Assembly (NCBI GenBank): GCA_024400295.1
Contig: JAKSNA010000001.1
Span: 62,001-126,000, forward strand
DNA: 64,000 nucleotides
Source: Bacteroidales bacterium
GTDB taxonomy: Bacteria > Bacteroidota > Bacteroidia > Bacteroidales > F082
Reading direction: 5' to 3'
How positions within the stretch are numbered: position 1 is the first letter of the stretch; each line of letters starts with the position of its first letter. A program made the position numbers and the translations under genes. Positions 16,250 to 43,031 of the stretch are shown piece by piece. The notes beneath the pieces are model-generated. The model did no database searches, was not told where the DNA came from, and was given only the letters and a program-made list of their open reading frames with translations.

Positions 16250-17917
16250 ATGACGACATACAGGAGAGAGACGGCAAAGACCTTTACTAAAGAAGAAGAA
16301 CACCGCTTCCGCGAGTTGATGAACACCATGGCCAAAAGCGTTAAGGGTTACACCAACAGAAAGATTGGCGATGCGCTGAAGATTGTAAGTGTTTATGACA
16401 CACCGTTTTACAAATTGGTTCTCAAGACGCAGAACGACACGCGCACGATACGCTCAGGCCATGAACGCTATAACGGCCAGATGATTCCGCAGCGCACCGT
16501 CTTCAGCGAAAGCGATTTCAACAAATGGGACATTTGCGAAGCCCCGAAGCCATACCGCAACGCGAGCATGTCTTTTTATGTGAGCGGCTCGAAACATATA
16601 GAGAAATGCCCGACATGCAACGCAACTGGTGTCGTGGCGTGCGGCAACTGCGGAGGAAAAGGCTCCGTAAGATGCAGCAAATGCGGCGGAAGCGGCACTG
16701 AGCATCATGAAGAACTCGTAAGGGAAATATGTCCGTCATGCCACGGCACCGGCGGCACCAAGACAGTGGAGCAAGGCACCGGCCGCGAGTTGAGCAGAAA
16801 CTGCTGTTACCGTTGCGGCGGCAACGGATATATCAACGTGAAACAGCAGATTCCAAGCACCTGCTCATCGTGCGGCGGCAGCGGACGGAAGACCTGCGGC
16901 ACATGCAACGGAAGCGGCAGACTCACCTGCTCGACGTGCGGCGGCAACGGCAAGGTGGTCTATTACTTGGCCGTTGACCAGAATGCATCTGTCAAACACG
17001 ACACCAAATTCATCATGACCGGCGACCTGCCTTCGGATGAGAAAGTGAAATATGTGGAGTCGTTCGACAGAACCGATGGCACGCTGATTTTCCAGCACGG
17101 CAATGACGGCATTTCATTCGACCGCAAACTCATCGGCAGCCAGGACTTCATGACCGGCACTCTGCAAAAAATGGCAGAAGACCTCGCCAACACAGCAAGC
17201 AACAAAATCATTTACAACGAGTTCCAGATTTATGAATATTCCGCCTTGACGGTCACATATCGCGTTGACAGCAAAGACTACACGTGCATACTGCAAGGTG
17301 ACTCGTGGGATGTCTTTACCGTGACCTCGCCGATCTCCGACTTCATGGACGACCTGAAGAGCAAGGTGATAAGTCTCACCAAGATGCGGCGTTACGGCAG
17401 CGCATGGACGGTGATGAAACGTATTCTCAACTTCCCGCAAGCGGGCGACAATGAGCGGAAAGTGAAGGAAGACCTTGAAGATGCCATGAAGCGATCCACA
17501 AAACTCGGCGTCAGATTCGCATTTCTCGCCTTCGTGCTCGCAATGCTCCCGTTGCTGGCGCATTATTTCAAAAACTACGAATTGCTGTCGCCTTGGGCAC
17601 ATTGGATCGTTGACAAGCTGAGTGTCAGAACCGGTTTGGGAATCATCTTCTATCTCATATTCAACGCGATATGCCTGTCGCAAATCGAGTTGCCGAAATT
17701 CACATATCTGCGTGAAAAGATGCCGGTGAGGTTCCTGCTCGGGTTCTGCCACGGCATTGTGTGCCAGGCATTTATCGTTCTCGGCTTCATTTTCCTCGAC
17801 TGGATCGGTGTCATCCCGATTTTAGACCTGATGCTGTTCGTTGCCATATACGCCATTATACTCTTGATAATCATGCTGGTTCATGTTTGCAAATGGCTTA
17901 TCGGATTGATATTTTAG
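16250..17917 (+). CDS. Membrane protein with DnaJ-type CxxCxGxG zinc-finger array
   Basis: This 555-aa protein has an uncharacterised N-terminal region of about 115 residues. Then come eight CxxCxGxG motifs (first CPTCNATG, last CSTCGGNG, about residues 119-238), a soluble domain of about 150 residues, and four or so hydrophobic segments from about residue 420 to the end. In DnaJ four such motifs bind two zinc ions and help hold unfolded substrates; here the number is doubled and there is no J domain (no HPD motif). A membrane-tethered zinc chaperone or redox protein is possible, but the role is unknown. It forms an operon with the small membrane protein before it. Confidence 0.75.
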   Translation: MTTYRRETAKTFTKEEEHRFRELMNTMAKSVKGYTNRKIGDALKIVSVYDTPFYKLVLKTQNDTRTIRSGHERYNGQMIPQRTVFSESDFNKWDICEAPKPYRNASMSFYVSGSKHIEKCPTCNATGVVACGNCGGKGSVRCSKCGGSGTEHHEELVREICPSCHGTGGTKTVEQGTGRELSRNCCYRCGGNGYINVKQQIPSTCSSCGGSGRKTCGTCNGSGRLTCSTCGGNGKVVYYLAVDQNASVKHDTKFIMTGDLPSDEKVKYVESFDRTDGTLIFQHGNDGISFDRKLIGSQDFMTGTLQKMAEDLANTASNKIIYNEFQIYEYSALTVTYRVDSKDYTCILQGDSWDVFTVTSPISDFMDDLKSKVISLTKMRRYGSAWTVMKRILNFPQAGDNERKVKEDLEDAMKRSTKLGVRFAFLAFVLAMLPLLAHYFKNYELLSPWAHWIVDKLSVRTGLGIIFYLIFNAICLSQIELPKFTYLREKMPVRFLLGFCHGIVCQAFIVLGFIFLDWIGVIPILDLMLFVAIYAIILLIIMLVHVCKWLIGLIF

Positions 17918-28692: not shown

Positions 28693-28700
28693 TATTTTTG
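28693..28700 (+). promoter_or_regulatory. Promoter -7 element before the structured RNA and island operon
   Basis: TATTTTTG at 28693-28700 matches TAnnTTTG on +. It would start a transcript near 28705 that covers the predicted RNA at 28801-28947 and, with read-through, the island operon beginning at 29024. Confidence 0.45.
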
Positions 28701-28800
28701 CCGACTTGAAAATTAAAATGTAGTAAAAACGAAAGGAACAGTAAGAAACAGAAATAAAGTGTAATAGACATATTTAGAAAAAGTAGCATTCGCTATTTAC

Positions 28801-28947
28801 GGGTGTTTTCAAAAATCGCCAATTTCAGAACTCTCCCATGTAAATAATACGAAAGCTCACCGGTTCTGGTGTGGGCTTCCCTATTTGGAGAGTTAGGTGT
28901 TTGGCGATACCTTGAAAGCAAAGTAAGGAAGAGCCGCACCTTTTTTT
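28801..28947 (+). ncRNA. Predicted rod-shaped structured RNA with terminal T-run
   Basis: The gap 28539-29023 has no gene, but this part folds by eye into a long rod. The pairings are GGTG 28802-28805 with CACC 28937-28940; GTTTTCAA 28805-28812 with TTGAAAGC 28912-28919 (one base shared with the first helix); ATCGCCAA 28815-28822 with TTGGCGAT 28901-28908; AACTCTCC 28829-28836 with GGAGAGTT 28887-28894; and an apical stem of CACC 28858-28861 with GGTG 28868-28871 and AAGC with GCTT. Seven T follow at 28941-28947. The rod with internal bubbles recalls 6S RNA or a regulatory leader. I do not recognise a family. Confidence 0.5.
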
Positions 28948-29023: not shown

Positions 29024-30391
29024 ATGACAAGGAAAATTTGTTATCTGATGATGGTGGCGATAATTATTTGCCATGGATGTTCTGGTCAAAATGAAGGACG
29101 AGATGCACGCAGTGGCGCAAAGAAACATACAAACACCGTAAATGAAACTGAAAAAGTGATTGAAATTGAAAATCAGTCCACAGCCAATTTCACCAAAGTA
29201 AATGAAGCCAATACAACAACTCCAACAGTAAATGTATATGTGGAAAATTCAGGGAGTATGTATGGATATGTTAAAGGTGTCACTGATTTTGAGGCTATGG
29301 TTTATGATTATTTGCTAAACATCAAATTGTCTAAAATCATCGACAGTTTAAACCTATATTACATTAATAGTGTAATGATTTCAAGAGGTACTGTGACGAA
29401 GGAGGACAATGCCATTTTGGATGATTTCATCAGGAGACTTGAACCAGATTCATTTAAAGCTGCTGGCGGTAATATGGCTTCTTCTGACATCGCAGAAATT
29501 TTCAAGAACATCATCGACAAAACTGATGATAATACCATATCAATTTTGGTCACAGACGGAATATTTTCACCTGGCACAGCTCAAAATGCGGATGATTATT
29601 TGAATAATCAACAAATCGGCATAAAACATTCAGTATCCAATTTAATTGAAAATGTGGGTAATGCTGCTGCAATAATGTATCAATCAATTTCGCATTTTGA
29701 CGGTGACTACTACTATTACAACAAATTGCAACATCGAGAAGTCGGCATACATTACAACGGCAACAGACCTTATTACATTTGGTTGTTTGGCAGTGCAGAT
29801 AATCTAACAAAACTCAGGAAGGCAATACCTGAAAACAAATTCAATGGTCAAGGCATCAAAAACACATTTTTAATATGTGAAGGCAGCAGAGCGGTCAATT
29901 ATGCAATTGATGCAGCAACTGGTAATTTTGACAAGCACAAACTTGCTGACGACAAACACAGTATTCATAGATTGTCCAGAGACAATAGTGGCAAAATTAA
30001 ATTTGCAGTTAAGGTTGATTTTTCAGAGCTTCTATTATCTGATGAATATTTGCTTGATACACAGAACTACATTATCAACAATGACTACTATGAAATGGCT
30101 GTTAAGAAAATAGAGACAGAGGGTTCAAGCTTTACGCACAAATTGACGTTCACATCCAAGGATGGAAGACCTCACACAAGCGAAAGTAATGTGGAGAATT
30201 TTTCAGTTAAATTGAAAATGAGTACACCGTCTTGGGTTGGTGAAATACATGACACAGATGGTTCTATTCCCGATAGAGGGAAAACATACGGCATAAAATA
30301 CCAGATAGATGGTTGCTATGGCGCATTTACAAGGTCGTTTGAACTTAACAATGAATATTATACTGAAATCAAAATAAACATCATCAAATAA
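29024..30391 (+). CDS. VWA-like lipoprotein, first gene of the motor/cytoskeleton island
   Basis: This 455-aa protein has a lipoprotein signal (lipobox ICHGC, Cys19), a linker to about residue 65, and a von Willebrand A-like domain. Strand VNVYVENSGSMYGY carries ENSGS (74-78) at the place of the MIDAS DxSxS, so the first Asp is replaced by Glu or Asn. GGNMASSDI (148-156) fits the MIDAS Thr/Ser position, and ILVTDGIF (174-181) supplies the conserved Asp. The C-terminal third has beta-rich segments (SFTHKLTFTSKDGR). It is probably attached to a membrane on the periplasmic side and binds a partner of the machine. It begins an operon of closely spaced, AT-rich genes. Confidence 0.72.
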   Translation: MTRKICYLMMVAIIICHGCSGQNEGRDARSGAKKHTNTVNETEKVIEIENQSTANFTKVNEANTTTPTVNVYVENSGSMYGYVKGVTDFEAMVYDYLLNIKLSKIIDSLNLYYINSVMISRGTVTKEDNAILDDFIRRLEPDSFKAAGGNMASSDIAEIFKNIIDKTDDNTISILVTDGIFSPGTAQNADDYLNNQQIGIKHSVSNLIENVGNAAAIMYQSISHFDGDYYYYNKLQHREVGIHYNGNRPYYIWLFGSADNLTKLRKAIPENKFNGQGIKNTFLICEGSRAVNYAIDAATGNFDKHKLADDKHSIHRLSRDNSGKIKFAVKVDFSELLLSDEYLLDTQNYIINNDYYEMAVKKIETEGSSFTHKLTFTSKDGRPHTSESNVENFSVKLKMSTPSWVGEIHDTDGSIPDRGKTYGIKYQIDGCYGAFTRSFELNNEYYTEIKINIIK

Positions 30392-30402
30392 AATCAACTA
30401 TT

Positions 30403-30846
30403 ATGTTTAGTAGAATGTATCTATGGTTCTCCAATATGTTTGGAGTGGATCTCGACAGCCATTTTGCTGGTCTTGATTGTGACGGGAACTTCGTCGGTCC
30501 TGATTGTTACATCAAATTTGGATTTATTGCGTTAGGTATTTCACTATTTATGGTAGTGCTATATTACTACGTAATCAACAGTACCAAATTTAATAAATGG
30601 TGGTCTTGGCTGATTATGTTGTTAATATCAGGTTTCGCCAATTTTTTCATTGGAGCCAGAATTGCGTTAAGAGACTATTACACGATTATACCTGATTGCT
30701 GGATAAATGGAGAAATGGGCGGTATCACCGAAACCAATTGTTGGATGTTTGGTTTGGCAAATTTTTTCATATCAATAATTTTTTTTATAGTTCTTTCATT
30801 CATGTTAAAATGGTGGAGTATTAATTGCAAAAGATCACCATTTTGA
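30403..30846 (+). CDS. Three-helix membrane protein of the island
   Basis: This 147-aa protein has hydrophobic segments at about residues 38-57, 66-86 and 114-135, with a Cys- and Asp-containing N-terminal stretch (LDCDGNFVGPDC) and a loop with two further Cys. It is 11 bases from the VWA-like gene and 23 from the tubulin-like gene. I recognise no family. Its place suggests a membrane anchor or channel part of the same machine. Confidence 0.65.
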   Translation: MFSRMYLWFSNMFGVDLDSHFAGLDCDGNFVGPDCYIKFGFIALGISLFMVVLYYYVINSTKFNKWWSWLIMLLISGFANFFIGARIALRDYYTIIPDCWINGEMGGITETNCWMFGLANFFISIIFFIVLSFMLKWWSINCKRSPF

Positions 30847-30869
30847 TTTTAACAATAAAATAAACAACT

Positions 30870-32327
30870 ATGGCTAAATTATATATTTTTGGAATTGGTG
30901 GAACCGGTTCAAGAGTGCTCAGGTCACTCACAATGCTGATGGCAACCGGTGTGAAAGTTGAAGACAATACCGGAAAACCATACGATATTGTTCCTATTAT
31001 CATTGATCCAGATCATGCTGCCGCTGATTTAACTCGTACTGTCAAATCGATGCAAGATTATGTGAAAATTTATAATGCAATCAATCACAATAATTGCAAC
31101 AAGAATAATTTCTTCAGTACAAAAATAAATATGGATATTATTCAATCTGTTTGTTTGCCTTTGGAAAACACACTTGATATTGATTTCAAGGAGTATATCG
31201 GGCTTCAAGACATGAAAGATTTCAATAATAAACCAAATGCGAATTACGCATTGGCATCTATATTATTCTCCGAGAAAAACCTTGATGCAAAAATGGATGT
31301 TGGATTTAAAGGGAATCCAAACATCGGTACCGTAGTATTGAATCAATTTACAAGAACTGTTGAATGGGATAATTTCATCGCATCATTCGCGCAAGATGAT
31401 AAAATTTTTATCATATCGTCAATATTTGGCGGAACTGGTGCAAGCGGATTTCCCCTGCTGCTAAAAAATATCCGTGCGGTTGATGAGAATAAATCCGGAT
31501 GCGCCAATGTAAAAAATTCTATCATTGGTGCAATCACCGTTATGCCATACTTCGATGTCAAGCCAAATGAGAACAGCGAAATTGATTCATCAACATTTAT
31601 TTCAAAGACAAAAGCGGCCTTGAGTTATTACGAAAGAAATATTAATGAAGTCAATGCCTTGTATTATATTGGTGATAGAATTTCAAAACAATATGAAAAT
31701 TCAGAAGGCGGTTCCACGCAGCGAAACGCCGCACACTTCATTGAACTGGCAGCCGCATTAGCGATTGTTGATTTCGCATCGCAGGGGGACCTCTCAACGT
31801 CTAATGGCGTTCCTTCCAGAACAATTTATAAAGAATACGGAATAAGAAACGAATCGGCTGAATTGATATTTAGCGACCTTGACGGTGGCACGAATGATAC
31901 AATTAAAAAACCGTTAATTGAATTTACATTATTCTGCAAATACATGAACGAACAACTCAAAGATTCTCTCGACCAACCATGGGCAAAAGATTTAAGATAT
32001 GATAGGAATTTCATCAGAAGTTCGTTCTACAACACATATTTATTTGATTTTAAAAATGCCTATATGGAGTGGCTTGAAGAAATGAATAATAACACCAGAG
32101 CATTTGCTCCTTTTAATCTTATTGAAAACAAAAATGATTTGTTCTCTTTCGTTAAAGGCGAAAAACCCGCTCCAGTATTCTGCATAGATTCGAATTACGC
32201 ATTGTTTGACCGATACCTTAATAAAAAGTCGGGTAAAGTAAGTCGAGACTCAGCAAAAGAAAACATTTTTATGGAATTGTTTTATATGGCAATAGACGAA
32301 TTAGTACATGATAAATATAGATTATAA
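30870..32327 (+). CDS. FtsZ/tubulin-like GTPase-type protein
   Basis: This 485-aa protein starts with a Rossmann-type strand and loop, YIFGIGGTGSRV (5-16), then IIIDPDH (43-49), as tubulin-superfamily proteins do with their T1 and T2 loops. IISSIFGGTGASGFP (181-195) resembles the tubulin G-box (GGGTGSG/GGGTGTG) that binds nucleotide phosphates. Later segments (AITVMPYFDV 221-230, NALYYIGD 262-269 and the helix NAAHFIELAAALAIVDF 286-302) fit the order seen in the Tubulin_2-type FtsZ-like family. It may polymerise with GTP near the membrane. A plain Rossmann NAD protein is the alternative, but the second glycine loop argues against it. It is translationally close (2 bases) to the actin-like gene. 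Confidence 0.7.
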   Translation: MAKLYIFGIGGTGSRVLRSLTMLMATGVKVEDNTGKPYDIVPIIIDPDHAAADLTRTVKSMQDYVKIYNAINHNNCNKNNFFSTKINMDIIQSVCLPLENTLDIDFKEYIGLQDMKDFNNKPNANYALASILFSEKNLDAKMDVGFKGNPNIGTVVLNQFTRTVEWDNFIASFAQDDKIFIISSIFGGTGASGFPLLLKNIRAVDENKSGCANVKNSIIGAITVMPYFDVKPNENSEIDSSTFISKTKAALSYYERNINEVNALYYIGDRISKQYENSEGGSTQRNAAHFIELAAALAIVDFASQGDLSTSNGVPSRTIYKEYGIRNESAELIFSDLDGGTNDTIKKPLIEFTLFCKYMNEQLKDSLDQPWAKDLRYDRNFIRSSFYNTYLFDFKNAYMEWLEEMNNNTRAFAPFNLIENKNDLFSFVKGEKPAPVFCIDSNYALFDRYLNKKSGKVSRDSAKENIFMELFYMAIDELVHDKYRL

Positions 32328-32329
32328 TT

Positions 32330-35300
32330 ATGAGTTACATATTCAGATTACACAAAGAAGGAAATAACACAATCAATGGCTGGGAGAATTCCGGCAAATA
32401 CGGAACTTCAATAATTGACCAGATACAAGATCCAAATGGCGATTCTGCGAAACGAGAAATAACGTCAATACCTTCACCTTTTGCAAGAATTGACCTTGTC
32501 AAGACAGCATTTAAAAAAGTCGCAGATGGCGATGTTGATGGTAATGATATTCATCACAAAATGGTTTCTGACGCATTAGATGTCGCACAGATTTTTTTTG
32601 AGTATGAGAAATTCAAGGATAAAGTTGAAATCATCACATGGGACAAAGATGATTGTATAAAAAAGTTGATTCAATCTACACACGAATCACACCGGCAGTT
32701 CGGCGAAGTACTACGTACATACAACGAGCAAGATGGTCGTGTGTATAATTTTGACAAGATGGACAGGATGTTTTTGTTGAATTACATTGATGGGCCCAAT
32801 AAGATTAACATCATTGGAGCAACATCACCATCAACATTGTTCTTCACTCCTGCAAATGATTTGTCGTATGTCAAATTAGGGGCTGGTCAAGATGTTTTCT
32901 TTGATGACGGATTGATGCCTCTTTATAGACGTGATATTGAATTTCAAATATATATATATTCTCTAAGTAATTCGATCAAAAATTTCGCAAGTATATTTAA
33001 AGATGTTGACAAATATTTACAAAAATGTTTGGCAAAATTGGATGATGATAAAAGGAGAATCATAAAACAAATAACGCCAAACGACTATGAGACTAATTAT
33101 AGTTGCATAGCAATTGATAATAACGCAGGTAACACCGTGTCCATATTGAAAAATAACGAATTGAATATTGACATAGAATTACGATGCAGAAAACAGAGTC
33201 TGAATTCAATTGCTGATACAAGTGGGTTTGTTATCGACTCTGAATACAGGATAAATGGAGTTCGTCCTCTTGTGCTTCCTGTTGAACCATATTCTCATAA
33301 GACCACGTACACTCAAGATATATGGAATAAAAACACCAAAGTCCCATATTTTGATTCACTGCCAGAAAGTGAAAGAACATTGCCAGATGATGGAGCAAAA
33401 TATCCATATCTCACAATTGGAGATTTTTTAACAGATTCAATTGTGAGGATGCCATACGAAATTGACAACCTAAGATATTTTGATGGGAATAGTAAAAAAT
33501 CCGATGAGAACAGTTACCTTCTTCCACTTACGGACAAGTTCTTCAATTTTTTCACCGTAGATGATTTGCTAACCAAATCTGTTGAAGGCAAAAAAATGTT
33601 TGAGTTTGAAAACAACGCGACAGGTGTCACTGCTATTCTAAGAATTCCAATTAGAAGTGGTCTTATTGAATATCGCAGAATATATTTTGAATCAGTTAAT
33701 AATACTGACGAAGCAAGAACAACAAATGGTGGTGCCATGTTCGACAACAAAATTGGTCTTGGAATTATGCCATTTGTAAAATTCCCCGAGGATGTTGACA
33801 AGCATTATCGTATAGCCATGTATGATAAATGCCGAAGCGGCAATGCATCATTAGTGTTTATGGATAAAAATTCGATATTAGACTCCAGAAATGTAATATG
33901 CAGCGAAAAAGACACGACATTAAATGTCTGCGGTCATGAATCTTATATTGTTGAAAATAATTTTGACCGTATAAAAGTTAACATTGGTGGCGTAACAGGT
34001 GGATACATCATTCCGAAATTCAAAAATGCCGGTGGAGGAACACAGTTTACATTTGCAGTTGACTATGGTACTACAAATACACATATTGAATATTGCACCG
34101 ACACCAATAGGAATCCGTTGTCATTTGTGATAGAAGAAAACGAATGTCAACTGAGGAAAATGCACACAAAATATACCGACCCTGATATTCGTATGGGCTT
34201 CATTCAAGATTTCATTCCAGACACCATTGGCAACAATGAGTACACATTTCCGATAAGAACTGTTTACGCCAAAATCAAGAATATCAATTTTAACAAAAAC
34301 CCAATGGCATTTGCGGAAGGCCATATTCCGTTCCTATACGAAAAGGACTTCATTCCCAAATGGAACGACATAAATACTGAAATGAAGTGGGGTGGAGTTG
34401 ATGACAAACTTCTCGAAATGCACATCGAGACCATATTTATGATGTTAAGAAACAAGGTGGTTCTCAACGAAGGAAGTCTCAGCAATACAAAAATTGCATG
34501 GTTCTTCCCCGCCAGCATGACTGAAGACAAGGTGATTAGATTTAGACGTTTTTGGAATTCAGCATACAAAAAATATTTTGGCGCCAATGCGGACGAAAAT
34601 ATAAAATCCATATCAGAATCTATTGCACCATATTTCCATTTTATTTGCGATCAAGGTGCAGCAGAAGAAATTGTAACAATAGATATTGGTGGCGGCACGA
34701 CAGATGTCCTCGTAGTACAAGAATCAAAGCCAACAATGCTGATGTCATTCAGATATGCATCAAATGCCATTTTCGGTGACAGTTACAACAGTAATCCGAC
34801 AAAGAATGGCTTCGTGTCAACATATCTTAAAACATTTGAAGACATATTAAAAGACAATGGTTTACAGGAACTTTCTCAAGCATTAATACAAATAAAAGGC
34901 CAAAACAAATCGTCTGATATTATTGCGTTCTTGTTTTCTTTGCAAGGTGAAAAAGTCAAGAACAACCCCGAACTGAATTTCCTGACAAAACTTGAGAAAA
35001 ACGACAAACTCCAGTATGTATTCATTGTATTTTACAGTTCGATATTCTATTTCATTGCAAAATCAATGAAAGCGAAGGGGTTGATGAAGCCAAAAACAAT
35101 TGCATTCAGTGGCAACGGTTCAAACACACTACATATTTTGTCAACAGAGAATGACATGATTTCACGTTTTGTCAAGCTAATTTTTGACAAAGTGTATGGC
35201 GACAATAAAGGGGCTATCGAAGTCATGATGGAGAGTAATCCAAAGATTGCAACTTGTAAAGGTGGTATTCGTTATCTCAATGGCGATGTGAATTTGAAGT

Positions 35301-35740
35301 TTGACGATGAAAGCAGCGAAACATCATCACTTACCGAATATGAAAAAATGGACAAAATCAGAACCGTTATTGTCGGTAATAATTTTGACACAGATGAAAT
35401 TAACAAATACATCAAGTACGAAGATGTGCCTGGCCAATTGAGCAAAGACATTATTGTATCGGTAGAAGATTTCTTTAAATTCTTGTTTGATTTACACCAG
35501 GATAATAAAGAATTTCTAACCAAAAAACTTGGTGCAAATAATTCACTTTACAACACCGTGAAGGAATTCTGCTTAGGAGAAGAAGGCAGGCAAATTTTGG
35601 AAGTTTCCTTGTCAAAGGGTTACAAAAAGAAACTTGAAGAAGTAAACGGAGATAAAGAGAAACAACTTGAAGACACGCTTTTCTTCTATCCATTGGTGGG
35701 ATTGCTACATGATCTTGCTTGGAAAATTAGTAATATGTAA
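32330..35740 (+). CDS. Large protein with actin/Hsp70-type ATPase domain (SrfB-like?)
   Basis: The 1136-aa product has an N-terminal half (1-560) without recognised motifs and a C-terminal ASKHA ATPase core. Phosphate-1 is FAVDYGTTNTHIEY (575-588), phosphate-2 is IVTIDIGGGTTDVLVV (781-796), and the adenosine motif is TIAFSGNGSNTL (923-934). The region after 985 is charged and ends in a helix. Actin, MreB, FtsA and Hsp70 share this core. The large size and fused N-terminal region recall the SrfB family, which should be tested by profile search. No signal peptide is present, so it should be cytoplasmic, beside the tubulin-like protein. Confidence 0.75.
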   Translation: MSYIFRLHKEGNNTINGWENSGKYGTSIIDQIQDPNGDSAKREITSIPSPFARIDLVKTAFKKVADGDVDGNDIHHKMVSDALDVAQIFFEYEKFKDKVEIITWDKDDCIKKLIQSTHESHRQFGEVLRTYNEQDGRVYNFDKMDRMFLLNYIDGPNKINIIGATSPSTLFFTPANDLSYVKLGAGQDVFFDDGLMPLYRRDIEFQIYIYSLSNSIKNFASIFKDVDKYLQKCLAKLDDDKRRIIKQITPNDYETNYSCIAIDNNAGNTVSILKNNELNIDIELRCRKQSLNSIADTSGFVIDSEYRINGVRPLVLPVEPYSHKTTYTQDIWNKNTKVPYFDSLPESERTLPDDGAKYPYLTIGDFLTDSIVRMPYEIDNLRYFDGNSKKSDENSYLLPLTDKFFNFFTVDDLLTKSVEGKKMFEFENNATGVTAILRIPIRSGLIEYRRIYFESVNNTDEARTTNGGAMFDNKIGLGIMPFVKFPEDVDKHYRIAMYDKCRSGNASLVFMDKNSILDSRNVICSEKDTTLNVCGHESYIVENNFDRIKVNIGGVTGGYIIPKFKNAGGGTQFTFAVDYGTTNTHIEYCTDTNRNPLSFVIEENECQLRKMHTKYTDPDIRMGFIQDFIPDTIGNNEYTFPIRTVYAKIKNINFNKNPMAFAEGHIPFLYEKDFIPKWNDINTEMKWGGVDDKLLEMHIETIFMMLRNKVVLNEGSLSNTKIAWFFPASMTEDKVIRFRRFWNSAYKKYFGANADENIKSISESIAPYFHFICDQGAAEEIVTIDIGGGTTDVLVVQESKPTMLMSFRYASNAIFGDSYNSNPTKNGFVSTYLKTFEDILKDNGLQELSQALIQIKGQNKSSDIIAFLFSLQGEKVKNNPELNFLTKLEKNDKLQYVFIVFYSSIFYFIAKSMKAKGLMKPKTIAFSGNGSNTLHILSTENDMISRFVKLIFDKVYGDNKGAIEVMMESNPKIATCKGGIRYLNGDVNLKFDDESSETSSLTEYEKMDKIRTVIVGNNFDTDEINKYIKYEDVPGQLSKDIIVSVEDFFKFLFDLHQDNKEFLTKKLGANNSLYNTVKEFCLGEEGRQILEVSLSKGYKKKLEEVNGDKEKQLEDTLFFYPLVGLLHDLAWKISNM

Positions 35741-35751
35741 TTAGTTAGGTT

Positions 35752-36909
35752 ATGAAAAGAATTGCAGCTATTATTAATGCTATCATGACGGCTCTTGCTT
35801 TTGGCTTTCTGCTGAAAGCAGAGCCTTCTTTTGCAGCGAACAACGAAGAGCAGACCGAATACAAATTGTCAAGATCCGAAATAACTTTGGAATTAGGCGG
35901 TACTGGTTATGATATTAAAATCACCCCCAAATCCACTACTCAACCAAAGTATGATTATTCAAATTCAAAGGAATACCTTAGTATTGATTCAGTAGGACAC
36001 ATAACTGCTATCGGACAAACTAATGAGCGTCAAGAAATCAAAGTTGTTATTGGAAGTGACACACTGACTTTTTTTGTAAATAAAATCAATGATAATGCCC
36101 GAATTAGTAAAATTATTAGTATTATAAAGCAAGATTTTAGATCACAAATTAATGAATTCAATAAAGAAATTGAAAATCTTCGCAGCCAAATAACTGATTT
36201 AACAAAAAAGGAATCTCACGATAACGAAGGGGAAACTCACGACAAAAATACAACTTTATTTATAACCATTATTGCTTCTCTTGGTGTACTTTTGGTAATA
36301 TCCATCATTGTACTGATTTGTCTTTACAGTAATAATAAAGAGAAAGATTTACGAATCCACAACTTGAATGATACAATCCACCGAAGTAAAAAAGATGATG
36401 ATCTTAATGGTAAAAATCTCAGAATTAATAATCTTGAAAGAGAAAATCAAAAATTAAGAAATAGAGTCAGTGATTTGGAGGATTTGTGCTATATAATGCA
36501 GCAAAACGTTAAGGAGATCCACGAAAACGCAGAGATAAAAGCAGAACCTGCCACTGACAGAGCAAGTAGTAATATTAAGGATGATGAAAACGCACCGAAA
36601 CAGAAACAAACAACAAGACTGTATTCAGATGCGATAATTAATGATATTCTTAATAAGGTTAATGAAAGGCCAAACGATGACACAATATTTGAGTTAATAC
36701 TGAACGGACAAGATTCAACCTCGGCAAAAGTTACAATATATTCTGGAGCAAAGAGAAGAATTATTGCAAATGCATCATTCTTGGAAGGATGCGAAAAACA
36801 AATTATCGGGAATAATGATGTTGTCGTAGAACGAGAAGGAACTGCTGAAAAAAATTCAACCACCGGCGTGTGGAATCTCATCAAGTGTCCCAAAGTTGTA
36901 ATAAAATAA
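35752..36909 (+). CDS. Single-pass membrane protein: BIG2-like domain, coiled coil, shared C-terminal domain
   Basis: The 385-aa product has a signal sequence (1-28, SFA|A) and a BIG2-like Ig domain at about 38-110 (LSRSEITLELGGTGYDI, YLSIDSVGHITAIG). A coiled coil (115-155), a transmembrane helix (167-192) and a second coiled coil (195-252) follow. The C-terminal domain (about 287-385) is clearly homologous to the end of the next gene (NDDTIFEL, RRIIAN.SFL.GC.KQIIGN). The Ig domain would be periplasmic and the C-terminal domain cytoplasmic. It could link the outside parts to the cytoplasmic NTPases. No family name is offered for the shared domain. Confidence 0.68.
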   Translation: MKRIAAIINAIMTALAFGFLLKAEPSFAANNEEQTEYKLSRSEITLELGGTGYDIKITPKSTTQPKYDYSNSKEYLSIDSVGHITAIGQTNERQEIKVVIGSDTLTFFVNKINDNARISKIISIIKQDFRSQINEFNKEIENLRSQITDLTKKESHDNEGETHDKNTTLFITIIASLGVLLVISIIVLICLYSNNKEKDLRIHNLNDTIHRSKKDDDLNGKNLRINNLERENQKLRNRVSDLEDLCYIMQQNVKEIHENAEIKAEPATDRASSNIKDDENAPKQKQTTRLYSDAIINDILNKVNERPNDDTIFELILNGQDSTSAKVTIYSGAKRRIIANASFLEGCEKQIIGNNDVVVEREGTAEKNSTTGVWNLIKCPKVVIK

Positions 36910-36913
36910 GACT

Positions 36914-38230
36914 ATGAAGAAAATATTGATTACTATTATGATTTTGTGCGGAGTAATATGCTCCGCACAAAATATCAATAGAGAAGATCATGAAAAATTA
37001 TCCCGATACGTTGTCGGCTATTATGTAAAAGGATATGTTGAGAAAAAAACTGATTCAGAATGGCGCAACAAACAAGGTGAACAGTTCAAAAAGGCATGGA
37101 AGGAATTCGAAGGCAATTCTATTTCCAAACCAATTGATACATGCTATTACAGCAATTTGTGGGCTTGTCTAAAAGATAAAAATCTCAACGGGGAGGATAT
37201 TTGTGAAAAAACAAGATCATTTTATGATAATATAAAGAATAAATTTGAAATCACAGATTGTGACATTGAAGAACTGATTAGTCTTCCAAATAAATACTAT
37301 GATAGTTGGAAAAACAGCAATGGGATTCCAAGATTCAAAGAACAACACGATTCTCTAAAAAAAGAATTAGAAACATTTTATGAAGAAAAGAAAAATCAAC
37401 GGAGTGAATATTCAGAAGGTCCAACAGGTTCAGATATAAAGGGGAATAGTTATGATAACCAGTATTCTCATAAAGAGGGAACGCAAGAACATCTTCAAAC
37501 TGACAATTCAAGGGAGGAACGAAAAAGGGGCAGTAAAAGTATAACGAACAAAGGGGAGAAACAGACGAAAACCGACGCAAAAGAGGCAACACCAAAGATT
37601 AGAATTGCAGGATGGATTTTTGTGGTAATATTTGCTATTGCAATCAGTTTCATTACATTTCTTTGGTGTCGTTCGAGAAAAAATCAACATCACGCCAATG
37701 TTCACAATTCCACAAATATGGATACAAAACAATCTAATATCAAATTAGAACGCAGAGTGTCTGAACTGGAACAAATGGTGACAGAATTAAGCCAAGACAT
37801 CAGATTGTTAAGGGAAGACTTTAATCGCTTTTTACAAAAGCAACCAGAATCAAACACTTTCAAAAAAACAACCACAAAAAGTACAGATACAGTACCGGCA
37901 AACACCGAAGATGTGACTCACAGTTATTCTCATGTAGATGCATATAAGACTTTATATGCTGATTCGATAATTGATGAATATTTCAACAAAGTAACAGAGA
38001 AGGCAAATGATGATACAATATTTGAATTGCATGTTACAAAAAATGGAGCAAACATTTCGGTATATCCAGATGCTATAAGGAGAATTATTGCAAATCCATC
38101 ATTTTTGGATGGATGCGACAAACAAATAATTGGCAATAGGATTGTGGAAATAAAAGAACAAGGATTTGCTCAAATACAAATGGATGGTAAATGGAAGGTA
38201 AACAAAAAATTAAATGTTTTAATTAAATAA
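36914..38230 (+). CDS. Single-pass membrane protein sharing the C-terminal domain of its neighbour
   Basis: The 438-aa product has a signal peptide (1-18, ICSAQ), a mostly helical, charged outer region (20-225, with several Cys and low-complexity Lys/Glu/Ser), a transmembrane helix (about 229-252), a coiled coil (275-310) and a C-terminal domain (343-438) similar to that of the gene before it. The outer region differs from the BIG2-like domain of its neighbour, so the two are paralogues with exchanged outer parts. The genes are 4 bases apart. They may form a heteromer in the inner membrane. Confidence 0.66.
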   Translation: MKKILITIMILCGVICSAQNINREDHEKLSRYVVGYYVKGYVEKKTDSEWRNKQGEQFKKAWKEFEGNSISKPIDTCYYSNLWACLKDKNLNGEDICEKTRSFYDNIKNKFEITDCDIEELISLPNKYYDSWKNSNGIPRFKEQHDSLKKELETFYEEKKNQRSEYSEGPTGSDIKGNSYDNQYSHKEGTQEHLQTDNSREERKRGSKSITNKGEKQTKTDAKEATPKIRIAGWIFVVIFAIAISFITFLWCRSRKNQHHANVHNSTNMDTKQSNIKLERRVSELEQMVTELSQDIRLLREDFNRFLQKQPESNTFKKTTTKSTDTVPANTEDVTHSYSHVDAYKTLYADSIIDEYFNKVTEKANDDTIFELHVTKNGANISVYPDAIRRIIANPSFLDGCDKQIIGNRIVEIKEQGFAQIQMDGKWKVNKKLNVLIK

Positions 38231-38238
38231 ATTTTGTC

Positions 38239-39882
38239 ATGTTTGGTATTTTACACTATGTAATTATTGGCGTTATTATCGCTGTTATTGTTCTCATACA
38301 GTTTATTTGTTATGAGAATACAAGTAAGAAAATCAAAAAATTTAGTTCTATATTCCCAAGAGCACAAAAATATGCTTTAAAAAAAGACAACCTGATTGAA
38401 CTTATAAAAAAAGCAGATGAGAAAGAATTGGTCAAAATGCTTAAATCTGGTGGATTTGACATTGAGAAATATCAAGATTTCCCCTCATATTCAAGTGAAA
38501 CAGGAGTTAAATCATTCAACAGGTCAAGGGCTGTTGATGATTTGGTTGCTGGTATTACAAAAGAAGTTGAAGGCATTACCACCAAACATGATAATCAAAC
38601 ATTTATTTCAATTGTTAATTCTATCAATGAATATCTTGACTGCAATAAATCCGTCAATGACTTTCATCTCATGAAAGACATTGTTGACCGAAATTGCGAT
38701 TCAAAAGAAGAAGAAATTGGCACACAAATTCCGATTCCGTTATATTTGGGATTAGTTGGTACGATGTCTGGGATTCTTGTCGGCGTCGCATTCCTATGGT
38801 TCACTGGCGGATTGTCTGATTTGTTAAGTACAGGTGGTACTGGTTCTGGTGCAGAAGGCATAGAGGCGTTACTTGGCGGGGTGGCCCTTGCTATGTTTTC
38901 AAGTATCTGCGGAATAGTGCTTACCACTATAGCATCAAATAAATTCAAACGAGCAAAAACCAATTTTGAAGATAACAAAAATTTATTTCTAAGTTGGATA
39001 CAGGCAAAACTTCTTCCTAAACTATCTGACAACATTGTCGGTGCATTAAGGGAAATGACTGTCAATTTGTCCGACTTCAATGAAAAATTTGAGGTAAATA
39101 TCGGCGGACTGGATGACGCATTAAGCAAAGTTAACGATTCTTACAAACAGCAAACAGAGTTAATGAATGCTGTCCAAAAACTTGCAGACAAAGACTTGTC
39201 GATGAAAAATCTTCAACTTTTTACTGCTCTGACAAATAGCACAAAACAAATTGAGATTCTCAATGAATATTTGAATAGAAGTAACATATATCTGGAAAAC
39301 GTCAAGGCATTAAATGCCAATCTTGCTGAGCAAGAAAAGAGAACACAAATGATGGAAAACATCGGCGAATTCATTAAAACAGAACTTGAACAAATTGAAG
39401 CGAGAAAGGGATTGATAAGCAAATCCGTTGGTACAGTTGACGACTATTTGAGGCAGGCCCTTGACAATTTAAAAGAAAGTTCTCAATCACAGTTAGAAGA
39501 ATTAAAGAAAGAGGTCGGAAAGCAAGACGATGTTCTCAACAAAAAATCGGAAGAAATCACGAAAATTGTTGATGAGTTACATCAATTGACAGATGTCAAA
39601 CAAAGTATTTCTGAATTTGCGAAAGAAATGAAGACACAGAATCAAAAACTTGATAATTTGTCAAACTCAATAAGGGCTTTAGCATCCGCAAAAGAAAGCG
39701 GGAATATTGTCAAAGAAAAAGAATATGTATCAAAGGTTAAAAAAGAGGAAGATAGCGGACCGTTATGGCTTAAAATATTAATTCCAACATCATCAATAAT
39801 TGGAAGTGTAATCGTTCTGTCAATTATTATTGCAAATTGGGATTCAATATTGAGATTTTTGCAATCTGTATTTAAATTCTAA
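38239..39882 (+). CDS. MotA/ExbB-type motor channel with long tail (ZorA-like)
   Basis: The 547-aa product has a first membrane helix at 5-24, then a helical cytoplasmic region. The MotA/TolQ/ExbB core follows: helix IPIPLYLGLVGTMSGILVGV (164-183) and helix GIEALLGGVALAMFSSICGIVLTTIAS (207-233). A cytoplasmic tail of about 270 residues, predicted as coiled coil (LNANLAEQEKRTQMM, KKEVGKQDDVLNKKSEE), ends in another membrane helix (511-533). Members of this superfamily form pentameric stators around two MotB/ExbD-type helices and use ion flow to do work. The long tail recalls ZorA of the Zorya anti-phage system, but a second membrane helix at the tail end is not usual there. Its partner is the gene at 40080. 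Confidence 0.78.
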   Translation: MFGILHYVIIGVIIAVIVLIQFICYENTSKKIKKFSSIFPRAQKYALKKDNLIELIKKADEKELVKMLKSGGFDIEKYQDFPSYSSETGVKSFNRSRAVDDLVAGITKEVEGITTKHDNQTFISIVNSINEYLDCNKSVNDFHLMKDIVDRNCDSKEEEIGTQIPIPLYLGLVGTMSGILVGVAFLWFTGGLSDLLSTGGTGSGAEGIEALLGGVALAMFSSICGIVLTTIASNKFKRAKTNFEDNKNLFLSWIQAKLLPKLSDNIVGALREMTVNLSDFNEKFEVNIGGLDDALSKVNDSYKQQTELMNAVQKLADKDLSMKNLQLFTALTNSTKQIEILNEYLNRSNIYLENVKALNANLAEQEKRTQMMENIGEFIKTELEQIEARKGLISKSVGTVDDYLRQALDNLKESSQSQLEELKKEVGKQDDVLNKKSEEITKIVDELHQLTDVKQSISEFAKEMKTQNQKLDNLSNSIRALASAKESGNIVKEKEYVSKVKKEEDSGPLWLKILIPTSSIIGSVIVLSIIIANWDSILRFLQSVFKF

Positions 39883-39905
39883 ATCGAAAATAATACTGCG
39901 TAATC

Positions 39906-40045
39906 ATGTCAAAAACATGTATAAATCCATCTTGTGGCAAAGAGTTGCCAAATATCGCTTTTGTGGAACACAGCAAGTTGAGATACATGAATTATCCGAA
40001 TTAGAATCATTGCATATTGAGGCAACTGAATTACATAATGGCTGA
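39906..40045 (+). pseudogene. Frameshifted double zinc-ribbon remnant
   Basis: An ATG at 39906 begins MSKTCINPSCGKELPNIA, a half zinc ribbon (CxxxxC), and this frame stops at 40002. In the next frame the same region reads KYRFCGTQQVEIHELSELE and stops at 40043. Joined, they resemble the usual double zinc-ribbon form CxNPxCGKELPxxAKYCRFCG. A small deletion near 39950 that removed a few bases, possibly together with the first Cys of the second pair, would explain it. It lies in the 197-bp gap between the two motor genes. Confidence 0.6.
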
Positions 40046-40079
40046 TATAATATATTTTGTTAGCAAATAATACTGTGAT

Positions 40080-40730
40080 ATGAGAAACAGAAAAGAATCT
40101 TTTTTTTGGACAAGTTACTCCGACTTGATGACAAGTTTGTTTTTCATCATGTTAGTCCTTTTTATTTTGGTCATTGTGCTGCTGCATAATAAAATAGATG
40201 ATATTGAGAAACAAAAAAATGCAACCGAACAACAATTAAGGAAAATCACAGAGTTAAACGAGTCGATTGAACAAATTAATGAGGATTATTTTGAGTATAA
40301 TGACAAGTTCAAACGTCATACACTTAAAAATATTTCTGTAAGATTCAATATTTACAGCAGTAATATAAATGACATTGATGACAATGATAAAAAAAGATTG
40401 ATTGAAGCCGGACGTGCGATACAAAAATTCATGAGAGATGCTCAAAAAAAGTTACCCGAAGCCGAATATCTTTTAATAATTGAAGGACAAAGTTCAAAGG
40501 ATAATTATCAATATAACTATGAACTCAGTTATAAACGCGCACTGGCACTTGTGAAATACTGGTCAGAAAACCAAATATACTTTGATGATTTGCCATGTGA
40601 AGTTATCATATCTGGTTCCGGTCAATCCAGCAAATTCCGTATAAGTCCGGAAACAATTGACGGAGTTGCAAACCCTGCGAACCAGAGGTTTGTCATACAT
40701 ATTATTCCCAAACCTGGTATAATTGAATAA
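40080..40730 (+). CDS. MotB/OmpA-type motor partner (ZorB-like)
   Basis: The 216-aa product begins FFWTSYSDLMTSLFFIMLVL, the MotB/ZorB signature in which Asp15 in the single membrane helix (about 9-36) is the ion-binding residue. A short coiled coil (40-75) leads to an OmpA-like peptidoglycan-binding domain (about 85-213) with LLIIEGQSS, LSYKRALALVKYW, EVIISGSGQSS and ANQRFVIHI. OmpA-like domains hold the cell wall and so anchor a stator. With the MotA/ExbB-type protein before it, this forms a 5:2-type rotary motor unit. The protease gene follows after 2 bases. Confidence 0.8.
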   Translation: MRNRKESFFWTSYSDLMTSLFFIMLVLFILVIVLLHNKIDDIEKQKNATEQQLRKITELNESIEQINEDYFEYNDKFKRHTLKNISVRFNIYSSNINDIDDNDKKRLIEAGRAIQKFMRDAQKKLPEAEYLLIIEGQSSKDNYQYNYELSYKRALALVKYWSENQIYFDDLPCEVIISGSGQSSKFRISPETIDGVANPANQRFVIHIIPKPGIIE

Positions 40731-40732
40731 CC

Positions 40733-41482
40733 ATGAAAAATCTTTTCTTCATATTATGTCTTTTGTTAATAAGCACTTCTTGTGTTAGAAGAGGTGGAAG
40801 TTATTCAAGTTCAAATGTCCGTGATAACAGACGCCACCAAACATCAACCAGAAGGGAAGCACACAACAGACCTTCAAAAAAGACATCGAACAACACAAGA
40901 CTTCAAACAAATAATAACGGGAAGAAATATTCAAGTTCTGAAATATTTGAAATGTACAACACTGCTGTCTTCATGATCTTCACATCTGACGGATGGAATG
41001 ATTACCAAGGTTCAGGATTTTTTGCATCATCAAATGGAATTGGGATCAGCAATTATCATGTTTTCCAAGGAACTACTATAGGTTATGAACAAATCAAACT
41101 ATCAAATGGCAACACATACAAAATCAAGAATGTAATAGCCAAAAGCGAAGACGATGATTACATTGTCTTCCAAGTAGATGCTATGGGCGGAAATTTCAAT
41201 TTCATACCTGTCAGCAATAGAATGCCAAAAGTTGGCGAACAAATATTTACAATTGGCAGCCCATACGGTTTGGAGAATACATTTTCTTCTGGTGAAATAT
41301 CCCAGTTCAGAGGAGACAATCTGATTCAAATAAACGCACCTATTGACCATGGGAGCAGCGGTGGTGCATTGATAAATGAGTATGGTGAAGTAATCGGAAT
41401 TACTACAGCTGGTCTTGACAAATCTGGTGCCAACTTGAATTTTGCGGTTGATATAAATGTCGTGAAACCATATTTGAAATAA
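40733..41482 (+). CDS. Trypsin-like serine protease lipoprotein
   Basis: The 249-aa lipoprotein (lipobox ISTSC, Cys17) has a Ser/Arg/Asn-rich linker to about residue 65 and a trypsin-fold domain. The triad is His109 (GISNYHVF), Asp142 (DDDYIVFQV) and Ser209 (HGSSGGAL). The oxyanion-hole glycine and the IGSPYGLENTFSSGEIS segment are as in Deg/HtrA-type proteases, but there is no PDZ domain. It should sit in the periplasm on a lipid anchor. As the last gene of the operon, it may process or check the periplasmic parts. The island ends just after this gene. Confidence 0.82.
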   Translation: MKNLFFILCLLLISTSCVRRGGSYSSSNVRDNRRHQTSTRREAHNRPSKKTSNNTRLQTNNNGKKYSSSEIFEMYNTAVFMIFTSDGWNDYQGSGFFASSNGIGISNYHVFQGTTIGYEQIKLSNGNTYKIKNVIAKSEDDDYIVFQVDAMGGNFNFIPVSNRMPKVGEQIFTIGSPYGLENTFSSGEISQFRGDNLIQINAPIDHGSSGGALINEYGEVIGITTAGLDKSGANLNFAVDINVVKPYLK

Positions 41483-41517
41483 CACCACATACGTTACAAC
41501 GAGAATCATGAAATGGA

Positions 41518-42103
41518 ATGCAGGGCAAAACGCTCAAACAACAAAAACTCGACCTCACGATGGACATATATCTGCCGCAACATTGAAATGATTGATTCGA
41601 AGAAGATTCCAGTCGCGGCATTCCATGGCGACCTCGATGAGATGGTGCCATACGGCTACGACTATCCTTTCACGATGATTGGCCCAGGATGTAAGTTGTT
41701 GTTTAACAAGATGTACGGTTCGTCAACAATCGTCGAGCGGCTACTTCAAAACGGCATCGACAAATCGAAAATGTACACTTTGTACAATATGCATCATTCT
41801 CCTCACGTTGATGAAGGCAGAGAATTAAATGAGATATTTTATTACATTCAAGATTGCATGGATCCGTTTTTCAAAGACATCACGGCAAATCCCGAAACAA
41901 CCACCGATGGTAACAGTTTCTTTATCAATGACATAAACGCCACAGATATAACATGGCAAGTTGATGGCGGAATCATACTGAAATCTTCAGGAAACGGAAT
42001 AAATGTCGCTTGGTTCGGTAATGCCCCGGAACATAAAGTTTATGCTTCAGGTTTGATGAGAGGAACGGGGTTTTTGAGTGAATTTAATGTTAATAAAAAA
42101 TGA
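41518..42103 (+). pseudogene. Esterase/lipase (alpha/beta hydrolase) remnant at the island edge
   Basis: At 41518-41582 one frame reads MQGKTLKQQKLDLTMDIYLPQ, the usual beginning of a Bacteroidetes secreted esterase domain. It then stops, and from about 41583 another frame continues with EMIDSKKIPVAAFHGDLDEMVPYGY and ends at 42101 with a beta-rich tail. The central part with the nucleophile serine is gone, while the acid (GDLDEMVP) and His (MHHSPHVDEG) remain. The 5' part before GKTLK is also missing, exactly where the AT-rich island ends. The gene was therefore cut by the island and later lost its centre. Its last bases overlap the nuclease ATG. Confidence 0.72.
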
Positions 42104-42912
42104 GTAAAAAAAGTAAAAGAAGTAATGGCAGCAAATTGATTCTGTTATGTTTAGCAATTATCATTGCCATTGTATTTATTTACTTTAAAAATACAGAACA
42201 GACCACATACGACCTGTGCGGGGTTGAAATTCCGGCGGCACTCACTGACCGAACTGAGCGTGTCATAACTCACAAAGGTTACACCGTTTCGTATAACTGC
42301 GACTGGAAGATTCCGAACTGGGTGGCATACGAACTTACTGACATTGAAGTCGAAGGTGAAGAGCCCCGTTCAAACAAGTTTGTGCCCGACCCGATGGTGC
42401 CTGAATATGAAACGGCATATACCGAAGACTATAAACATTCAGGTTATGACCGCGGACACATGGCTCCTGCCGCCGACATGAAATGGCATCCGCAGGCGAT
42501 GAATGAGTCATTTTATCTTTCAAATATCTGTCCACAAAACCATAATCTGAACGCCGGAGTGTGGAAAAGTCTCGAAGAACAGGTTCGTGACCTCGCATCG
42601 CAGAAAGGCAGCATCTATGTGGTGTGTGGTCCGATAGTTCCAGCTGATTACCAAACGATTGGTGAAAATAGAGTCGCCGTTCCGAGTGCTTTTTTCAAGG
42701 TCCTTTTACAGGAAGAAAACGGCGGAATTCACACAATCGGTTTCGTTTACGAAAACAAGAGTGGCAAACGCCCGATGTCAACATACGCGCGAACTGTGGA
42801 TGAAATAGAAGAGATAACTGGCATCGACTTCTTTCCTGTACTACCTGACGATATCGAGGAAAAGGTGGAATCGGAAGTTGATTTTTCGAAGTGGGTAGTG
42901 AAAGGTCAATAA
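42100..42912 (+). CDS. Membrane-anchored DNA/RNA non-specific endonuclease (NUC/EndoG family)
   Basis: The 270-aa product has a lysine-rich start and one membrane helix (about 12-29). A beta-beta-alpha-metal nuclease domain follows with the motif YDRGHMAPAAD (116-126; catalytic His120) and the metal/active-site Asn region SNICPQNHNLNAGVWKSLE (141-159). The domain would face the periplasm and degrade DNA or RNA taken up or released there. The ATG overlaps the esterase remnant by 4 bases. Its base use is like the host chromosome rather than the island, so it is probably a resident gene. Confidence 0.85.
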   Translation: MSKKSKRSNGSKLILLCLAIIIAIVFIYFKNTEQTTYDLCGVEIPAALTDRTERVITHKGYTVSYNCDWKIPNWVAYELTDIEVEGEEPRSNKFVPDPMVPEYETAYTEDYKHSGYDRGHMAPAADMKWHPQAMNESFYLSNICPQNHNLNAGVWKSLEEQVRDLASQKGSIYVVCGPIVPADYQTIGENRVAVPSAFFKVLLQEENGGIHTIGFVYENKSGKRPMSTYARTVDEIEEITGIDFFPVLPDDIEEKVESEVDFSKWVVKGQ

Positions 42913-42976: not shown

Positions 42977-43031
42977 TTTTCGCTTGACGGACTTCGCGAA
43001 ATTCAGAAGGGCAGCGTAGAATAAGAAAAAA
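42977..43031 (+). promoter_or_regulatory. Shared leader element, copy B (upstream of the LRR gene)
   Basis: Contains ACGGACTTCGCGAAAT and then AGGGCAGCGTAGAA, matching the minus-strand element at 15582-15635. In this copy the CTGAATTT/AAATTCAG arms (42972-43004) can form a hairpin in the 5' leader. It ends 34 bases before the ATG. Confidence 0.5.

Follow-up and report, generated by a model that had tools for sequence, protein, structure and literature searches.

What might a bacterium accomplish with a single operon that encodes a tubulin-like protein, an actin-like ATPase, and a rotary stator? The question is raised by positions 29024–41482 of a 64,000-nucleotide stretch of a Bacteroidales genome (contig JAKSNA010000001.1, positions 62,001 to 126,000; hereafter the window), in which nine intact + strand open reading frames (ORFs) and one broken gene nearly abut. 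The gaps between the nine intact ORFs measure 11, 23, 2, 11, 4, 8, 197, and 2 bases, the 197-base gap containing the broken, zinc-ribbon-like gene. The operon has 34.8% G+C versus 47.5% at 1–28500 and 46.4% at 43000–64000. This layout matches a preliminary description made from the letters alone, whose gene coordinates and strand are borne out by the ORF list, as are its gaps of 2–23 bases except around the broken gene, its base counts (16 G+C of 60 at 33001–33060, 31 of 60 at 16801–16860), and its statement that base use is unlike that of the host. We read genes A–I, with a probability of roughly 0.4, as one envelope-surveillance machine that would answer a breach of the wall with a predicted exported enzyme, most probably in defense against phages or other attackers. 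The parts are as follows:

29024–30391, + strand: gene A, a vWA-like lipoprotein with ENSGSM, a motif like the metal ion-dependent adhesion site (MIDAS), from alignment, model, fold matches, and motif scan
30403–30846, + strand: gene B, a small membrane protein with three predicted transmembrane (TM) segments
30870–32327, + strand: gene C, a tubulin/FtsZ-like protein with GGTG loops
32330–35740, + strand: gene D, a 1136-residue actin-like (ASKHA) ATPase
35752–36909, + strand: gene E, with a signal peptide, an ectodomain, one TM segment, and a cytoplasmic part ending in a conserved C-terminal domain
36914–38230, + strand: gene F, a paralogue of E, the C-terminal domain being common to both
38239–39882, + strand: gene G, a MotA/ExbB/ZorA-type channel subunit with a long C-terminal coiled tail
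39906–40045, + strand: broken zinc-ribbon-like gene, its halves in two different frames
40080–40730, + strand: gene H, a MotB/ZorB-type subunit with the channel Asp motif SYSDLMT and an OmpA-like peptidoglycan-binding motif
40733–41482, + strand: gene I, a trypsin-like lipoprotein (Trypsin_2, 6.7e-20)
42100–42912, + strand: DNA/RNA non-specific endonuclease with an N-terminal TM segment (PF01223, 2.7e-59), a possible extra part or a host neighbor

The gene set is a conserved unit. Related loci were located via C or D, fetched, and their genes mapped by profile, so that the presence of C and D is given by construction while A, B, G, and H played no part in finding them. All 25 loci whose contig covers the entire core show A–D in a single order and on a single strand (one, L047, has an additional ORF called between B and C), and G and H come after the core in 19 of them. 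Pairwise distances for A, B, C, D, G, and H correlate across 19–20 loci with r of 0.90–0.98, genome kinship not being removed. Counted outside the 25 are L015, which is 99.99% identical to part of L016; loci whose core is incomplete or cut by contig ends (L017, L018, L020, L034, L040, L041, L043, and L054); L026, in which A and B are fused; the remote L027–L031, L044, L045, and L053; and L104, found later. The co-occurrence of homologues in other genomes, on which the preliminary description had staked its idea, is thus found.

The family is neither rare nor uniform. C is matched in 15 of 100 related genomes, its own included, 11 of them strongly (E ≤ 2.6e-47). The D profile recovers long relatives from 14 of the 393 order-level genomes and from 9 of the 395 phylum-level ones, both counts including the window's own genome; these tallies (125 genomes) count long D rows only, the rest being nearly all short matches in ORFs of mostly 420–480 residues, the size of FtsA. 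Since 2399 proteins among 7991 scored in the D search reach E ≤ 0.001, systems of this type are not rare; the system is patchily present across scattered Bacteroidota. In two genomes the core is present twice, as dissimilar copies placed apart on the D tree (L014 and L022 in G044; L033 and L036 in G251). Prevotella sp. oral taxon 299 str. F0039 (L104, NC_022111.1 616317–637733), a named strain whose record is complete, holds A–D, an E/F-type gene, and a zinc-ribbon-like gene, with G and H not recognized.

Each assignment can be examined in turn. The vWA domain is defined by a DxSxS MIDAS and the vWA fold; the window protein A has the MIDAS-like ENSGSM, its model and fold matches were compared, and the motif scan finds a MIDAS-like motif in 28 of 32 rows. 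The fused A–B protein of L026 is a 514-residue lipoprotein with a MIDAS-like motif and three C-terminal TM segments matching B, which suggests a role for B in keeping A at the inner membrane. Protein C (485 residues) is assigned to the tubulin/FtsZ superfamily by profile match and the GGTG signature loop. PF00091 is found in 13 and PF13809 in 11 of 15 family members at E ≤ 0.01, while the window protein itself scores below the curated cut-offs of both (Tubulin_2, 25.6 versus 27 bits), and G187–G190 and A191 are invariant in the 15 aligned rows. Protein D is placed in the actin superfamily (ASKHA), with an actin-like domain nearest MreB, by its motifs and its modeled fold. The model and fold comparison put the actin fold at about residues 571–1007, behind an N-terminal region of about 570 residues, and the window protein has DYGTTNT, DIGGGT, and FSGNGS for the phosphate 1, phosphate 2, and adenosine motifs; among 35 rows of the pattern scan, some miss one motif. 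The SrfB profile (PF07520) matches D weakly, in two of 11 members with a best E of 0.011.

G and H are assigned as a ZorA/ZorB-type stator pair, G less firmly than H. H matches ZorB1 at 1.1e-15. The ZorA1 match of G is weaker (7.3e-5) and confined to the tail, seven of 21 relatives match MotA_ExbB, and the PDB profile search returns no stator match in the channel region; the one stator chain it finds, 8vvi_F (E 0.009), lies for the most part over the tail. The E/F family was collected by its C-terminal part, with one of 25 rows (L042, a D protein) probably false. A comparison of 18 of its proteins, with matches in 10 of 153 pairs for the ectodomain and 43 of 153 for the C-terminal part, is biased by that mode of collection and was set aside as a measure of ectodomain divergence. 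The parts list of the preliminary description (VWA-like, membrane, tubulin-like, ASKHA, paired single-pass, channel, anchor, and protease proteins) is accordingly right: the tubulin-like assignment survives profile comparison, ASKHA is narrowed by profile and fold to an actin-like domain nearest MreB, and MotA/MotB becomes ZorA/ZorB.

Gene order, families, the actin-fold model, the A–B fusion, and the switching gene after H were obtained directly, and the predicted locations of all operon proteins are at the envelope. The anatomy points to a peptidoglycan-anchored machine, with sensors on its outer face, a membrane-embedded stator, and a pair of cytoskeletal NTPases on its inner face; we infer each coupling. 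As in ZorAB, G would conduct ions and H would hold on to peptidoglycan; such ion flow may drive or sense cytoplasmic filaments, as the preliminary description proposed. The periplasm would be monitored by A, which B would tether, together with the E and F ectodomains. A periplasmic change would be relayed to C and D by the coiled G tail and the E/F C-terminal domains, and nucleotide-driven assembly of C and D under the membrane would release or activate the exported enzyme on incoming or damaged material, or kill the cell.

The gene after H differs between loci, and a recognized enzyme stands there in 13 of the 19 loci with G and H. It is (i) a trypsin-like lipoprotein in the window, L035, and L037, (ii) a retropepsin-like lipoprotein in L013, L032, and L042, (iii) a nuclease in L016, or (iv) a DUF4357-like protein in L019, L021, L022, L023, L024, and L038, with a nuclease following the DUF4357-like gene in the L021–L024 group. 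Two loci with cut cores, L018 (trypsin) and L041 (retropepsin), are consistent with the pattern. The short retropepsin-like proteins were identified by similarity to L013:13242–13760 and to two TPR proteins with gag-asp_proteas matches. Lipoprotein or N-terminal TM signals mark the trypsin-like, retropepsin-like, and nuclease proteins. Five changes on the D tree are required for the trypsin label and five for the retropepsin label, forced by starred branches, versus one for DUF4357. The pattern fits a putative exchangeable effector.

The PF01223 nuclease downstream was considered as a fixed operon part and is kept as possible only. It occurs as a single copy in 13 of 15 genomes tested, and in same-genus genomes it is found in 9 of 10 with the core versus 16 of 50 without (Fisher p 0.001). 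Seven of the nine same-genus genomes having both carry it within the fetched locus, on opposite sides in G000 and G052. The window copy may be a host neighbor because it has 44.4% G+C and is closer to the L019 copy (75–79% identity) than to operon-embedded ones (41–47%). Between operon and nuclease, the ORF at 41513–42103 resembles the C-terminal part of a larger hydrolase, and the Pfam scan gave no match for it.

Upstream of gene A lies a second lead, a strongly covarying, attenuator-like RNA element of Bacteroidales genomes without an Rfam match:

28693–28700, + strand: weak TAnnTTTG-like motif (pattern search), a candidate −7 promoter element
28798–28929, + strand: leader RNA element R1, a 132-nt long hairpin ending 95 nt before gene A (model, searches, and covariation)
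28930–28947, + strand: terminator arm GCCGCACC followed by seven T (28941–28947), with the potential to base-pair with R1's apical arm

The pattern search found no −33 motif at the set spacing from the first of these. The R1 model, built from four sequences, finds the element in 46 of 149 genomes of the order, with up to 18 copies per genome. The distance from R1 to gene A is 40–399 nt in the window, L014, L016, L017, L023, and L024 (E up to 0.014; 30 sources searched) and perhaps in L019 (E 0.19); in L036, R1 lies 1.8 kb upstream. Across 30 rows, pairing holds in 96.0% of cells, and 34 of the 38 base pairs show changes on both sides, the alignment having been fitted to the structure; slid structures reach 35–43% pairing versus 96.0% for the model. 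Of 32 rows (L056 and L057 excluded), 30 have a T-run no more than 20 nt downstream, and 25 have an ORF on the same strand whose start is at most 155 nt away. Pairing between the apical arm and the arm that precedes the T-run scores 18.7 on average versus 15.5 for swapped arms, with none of 1000 shuffles as high in 36 rows, the arms being picked by a simple rule. These features lead us to read R1 as a putative transcription attenuator. Rfam gives no match at R1 in the window or in 20 other sources. PMC2864571 lists RNA motifs of Bacteroidetes, among them some that Rfam lacks (GUCCY-hairpin, for example), and R1 may be identical to one of those. R1 also occurs at L056–L083 and L105–L109. At L108 (2858–2985, − strand) it precedes a long ORF with relatives in L108 and L073, and in L069 it precedes a methyltransferase-like gene, so named from its sequence.

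Support for a defense role is indirect: the likeness to ZorAB, the kinship with conflict systems, the patchiness, and the switching slot favor it. Several results weigh against it, and against the surveillance machine as a whole. The 129 flank proteins match 38 PADLOC families versus 42 for 129 controls (E ≤ 1e-10, families rather than distinct proteins counted; control taken at 20 hand-picked places in system-carrying genomes; flank proteins mostly ≤600 residues, control ≤900; enzyme-slot genes excluded from the flanks except one DUF4357-like row), and there is therefore no defense-island signal. R1 elsewhere stands mostly before genes with exported-looking products, that is, with a hydrophobic signal-like start. 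None of 50,697 phage records searched matches the system, and the plasmid collection yields one matching record among 72,556, a 1.77-Mb replicon. G and H were not found even at E up to 1 in the remaining six of the 25 whole-core loci, six of the 19 loci with G and H have no recognized enzyme after H, and export signals are not evident in the DUF4357-like proteins. The retropepsin labels show no clustering on the D tree (257 of 500 shuffles are as low), which leaves gain, loss, and transfer of the slot gene indistinguishable. The most far-reaching form of the proposal, a new class of envelope machine in which a ZorAB-type stator works tubulin and MreB-like actin homologues under a vWA/membrane sensor and discharges interchangeable enzymes as an RNA-attenuated, cytoskeleton-powered, periplasm-facing immune device, is less likely than not.

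A rival reading is envelope remodeling or maintenance, in which the stator and the tubulin and actin homologues organize the wall or outer membrane and the protease trims envelope proteins, with no role in defense. The envelope locations, the signal-like starts downstream of R1, the flanks without defense-gene excess, and the prediction of FtsZl1 operons as membrane-remodeling systems, given in the available part of PMC2875224, all agree with such a role, which we rate somewhat below surveillance in probability; maintenance would not usually go with a patchy distribution, a pair of dissimilar copies in one genome, a switching enzyme, and the low G+C seen in the window, and the DO-GTPase/GAP1-type neighbors in L028 also speak against it. 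The loci with A–D and no recognized G and H (six of the 25, and L104) could instead mean that a device of A–D, plus E/F, merely travels with a separate G–H stator. That seems quite unlikely given gaps of mostly a few bases and the parallel divergence of G and H with A–D, kinship again not removed. Least probable is a weapon against neighboring bacteria, or a secretion device, that discharges protease or nuclease outwards; the lipoprotein and TM signals of the enzymes and the motor-driven secretion by SiiAB, named in the part of PMC12204202 that was available, would be in keeping with it; against it, no immunity gene, secretin, or outer-membrane channel was recognized in the operon. The surveillance machine remains the preferred reading.

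How does the operon relate to known systems, insofar as the available parts of the cited papers describe them? The FtsZl1 operons of Makarova and Koonin (2010, PMC2875224) are predicted membrane-remodeling systems with vWA, kinase, GTPase, and OmpA partners, their tubulin-like domain leading into a coiled coil and a helical C-terminal region. The preliminary description had drawn this link, and it holds as far as a vWA gene accompanies a divergent tubulin-like protein, joined in some cases by an OmpA-type protein; an actin-like ATPase, a stator, and a protease are not named among FtsZl1 partners there. C, at 485 residues and below the Tubulin_2 cut-off, the added actin-like ATPase and stator, and the absence of kinase and GTPase partners from the scanned window operon set the two apart. 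The motor-vWA force transducers of PMC12204202 likewise place a 5:2-type motor gene beside vWA genes, with the vWA protein itself a TM-bound transducer or motor dimer, whereas here H is of the dimer type and A is a lipoprotein. Among the papers returned by searches of open-licence literature, none describes a device combining tubulin-like and actin-like NTPases with a rotary stator.

The DO-GTPase/GAP1-N2 neighborhoods of Kaur et al. (2020, PMC7159879), described there in firmicutes and actinobacteria only, look closer than FtsZl1 because L028 and L026 hold relatives of both gene sets. In L028, C and D relatives stand with weak B-like ORFs, a candidate A not being recognized; next come genes for a BACON protein, for a DO-GTPase, and for a protein that has GAP1 matches below threshold. 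In L026 the A–D core leads into genes for a ParA-like protein, which matches DO-GTPase1 below threshold, and for a trypsin-like protein. Another remote locus, L044, pairs a tubulin and a D-like gene with a PP2C phosphatase. Common to the window and these neighborhoods are tubulin-like and vWA proteins near the membrane with variable partners, the window adding the 1136-residue actin-like D and the stator. With Zorya (Mariano et al. 2025, PMC11890865) it shares a ZorB-type H, with its channel Asp and OmpA-like domain, and the long coiled tail of G; the partners here are tubulin-like, actin-like, and vWA-like, and the enzymes after H are of other types. Among the ten operon-region proteins there is no Pfam match to DO-GTPase or GAP1 and no match to ZorC, ZorD, or ZorE, and the operon is therefore best filed, by its protein families, near both systems and as a member of neither. 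If its parts act together, it would be a bacterial device uniting tubulin-like and actin-like NTPases with a rotary stator, and its existence would link Zorya-type motors with the predicted tubulin/vWA conflict systems, opening both to experiment.
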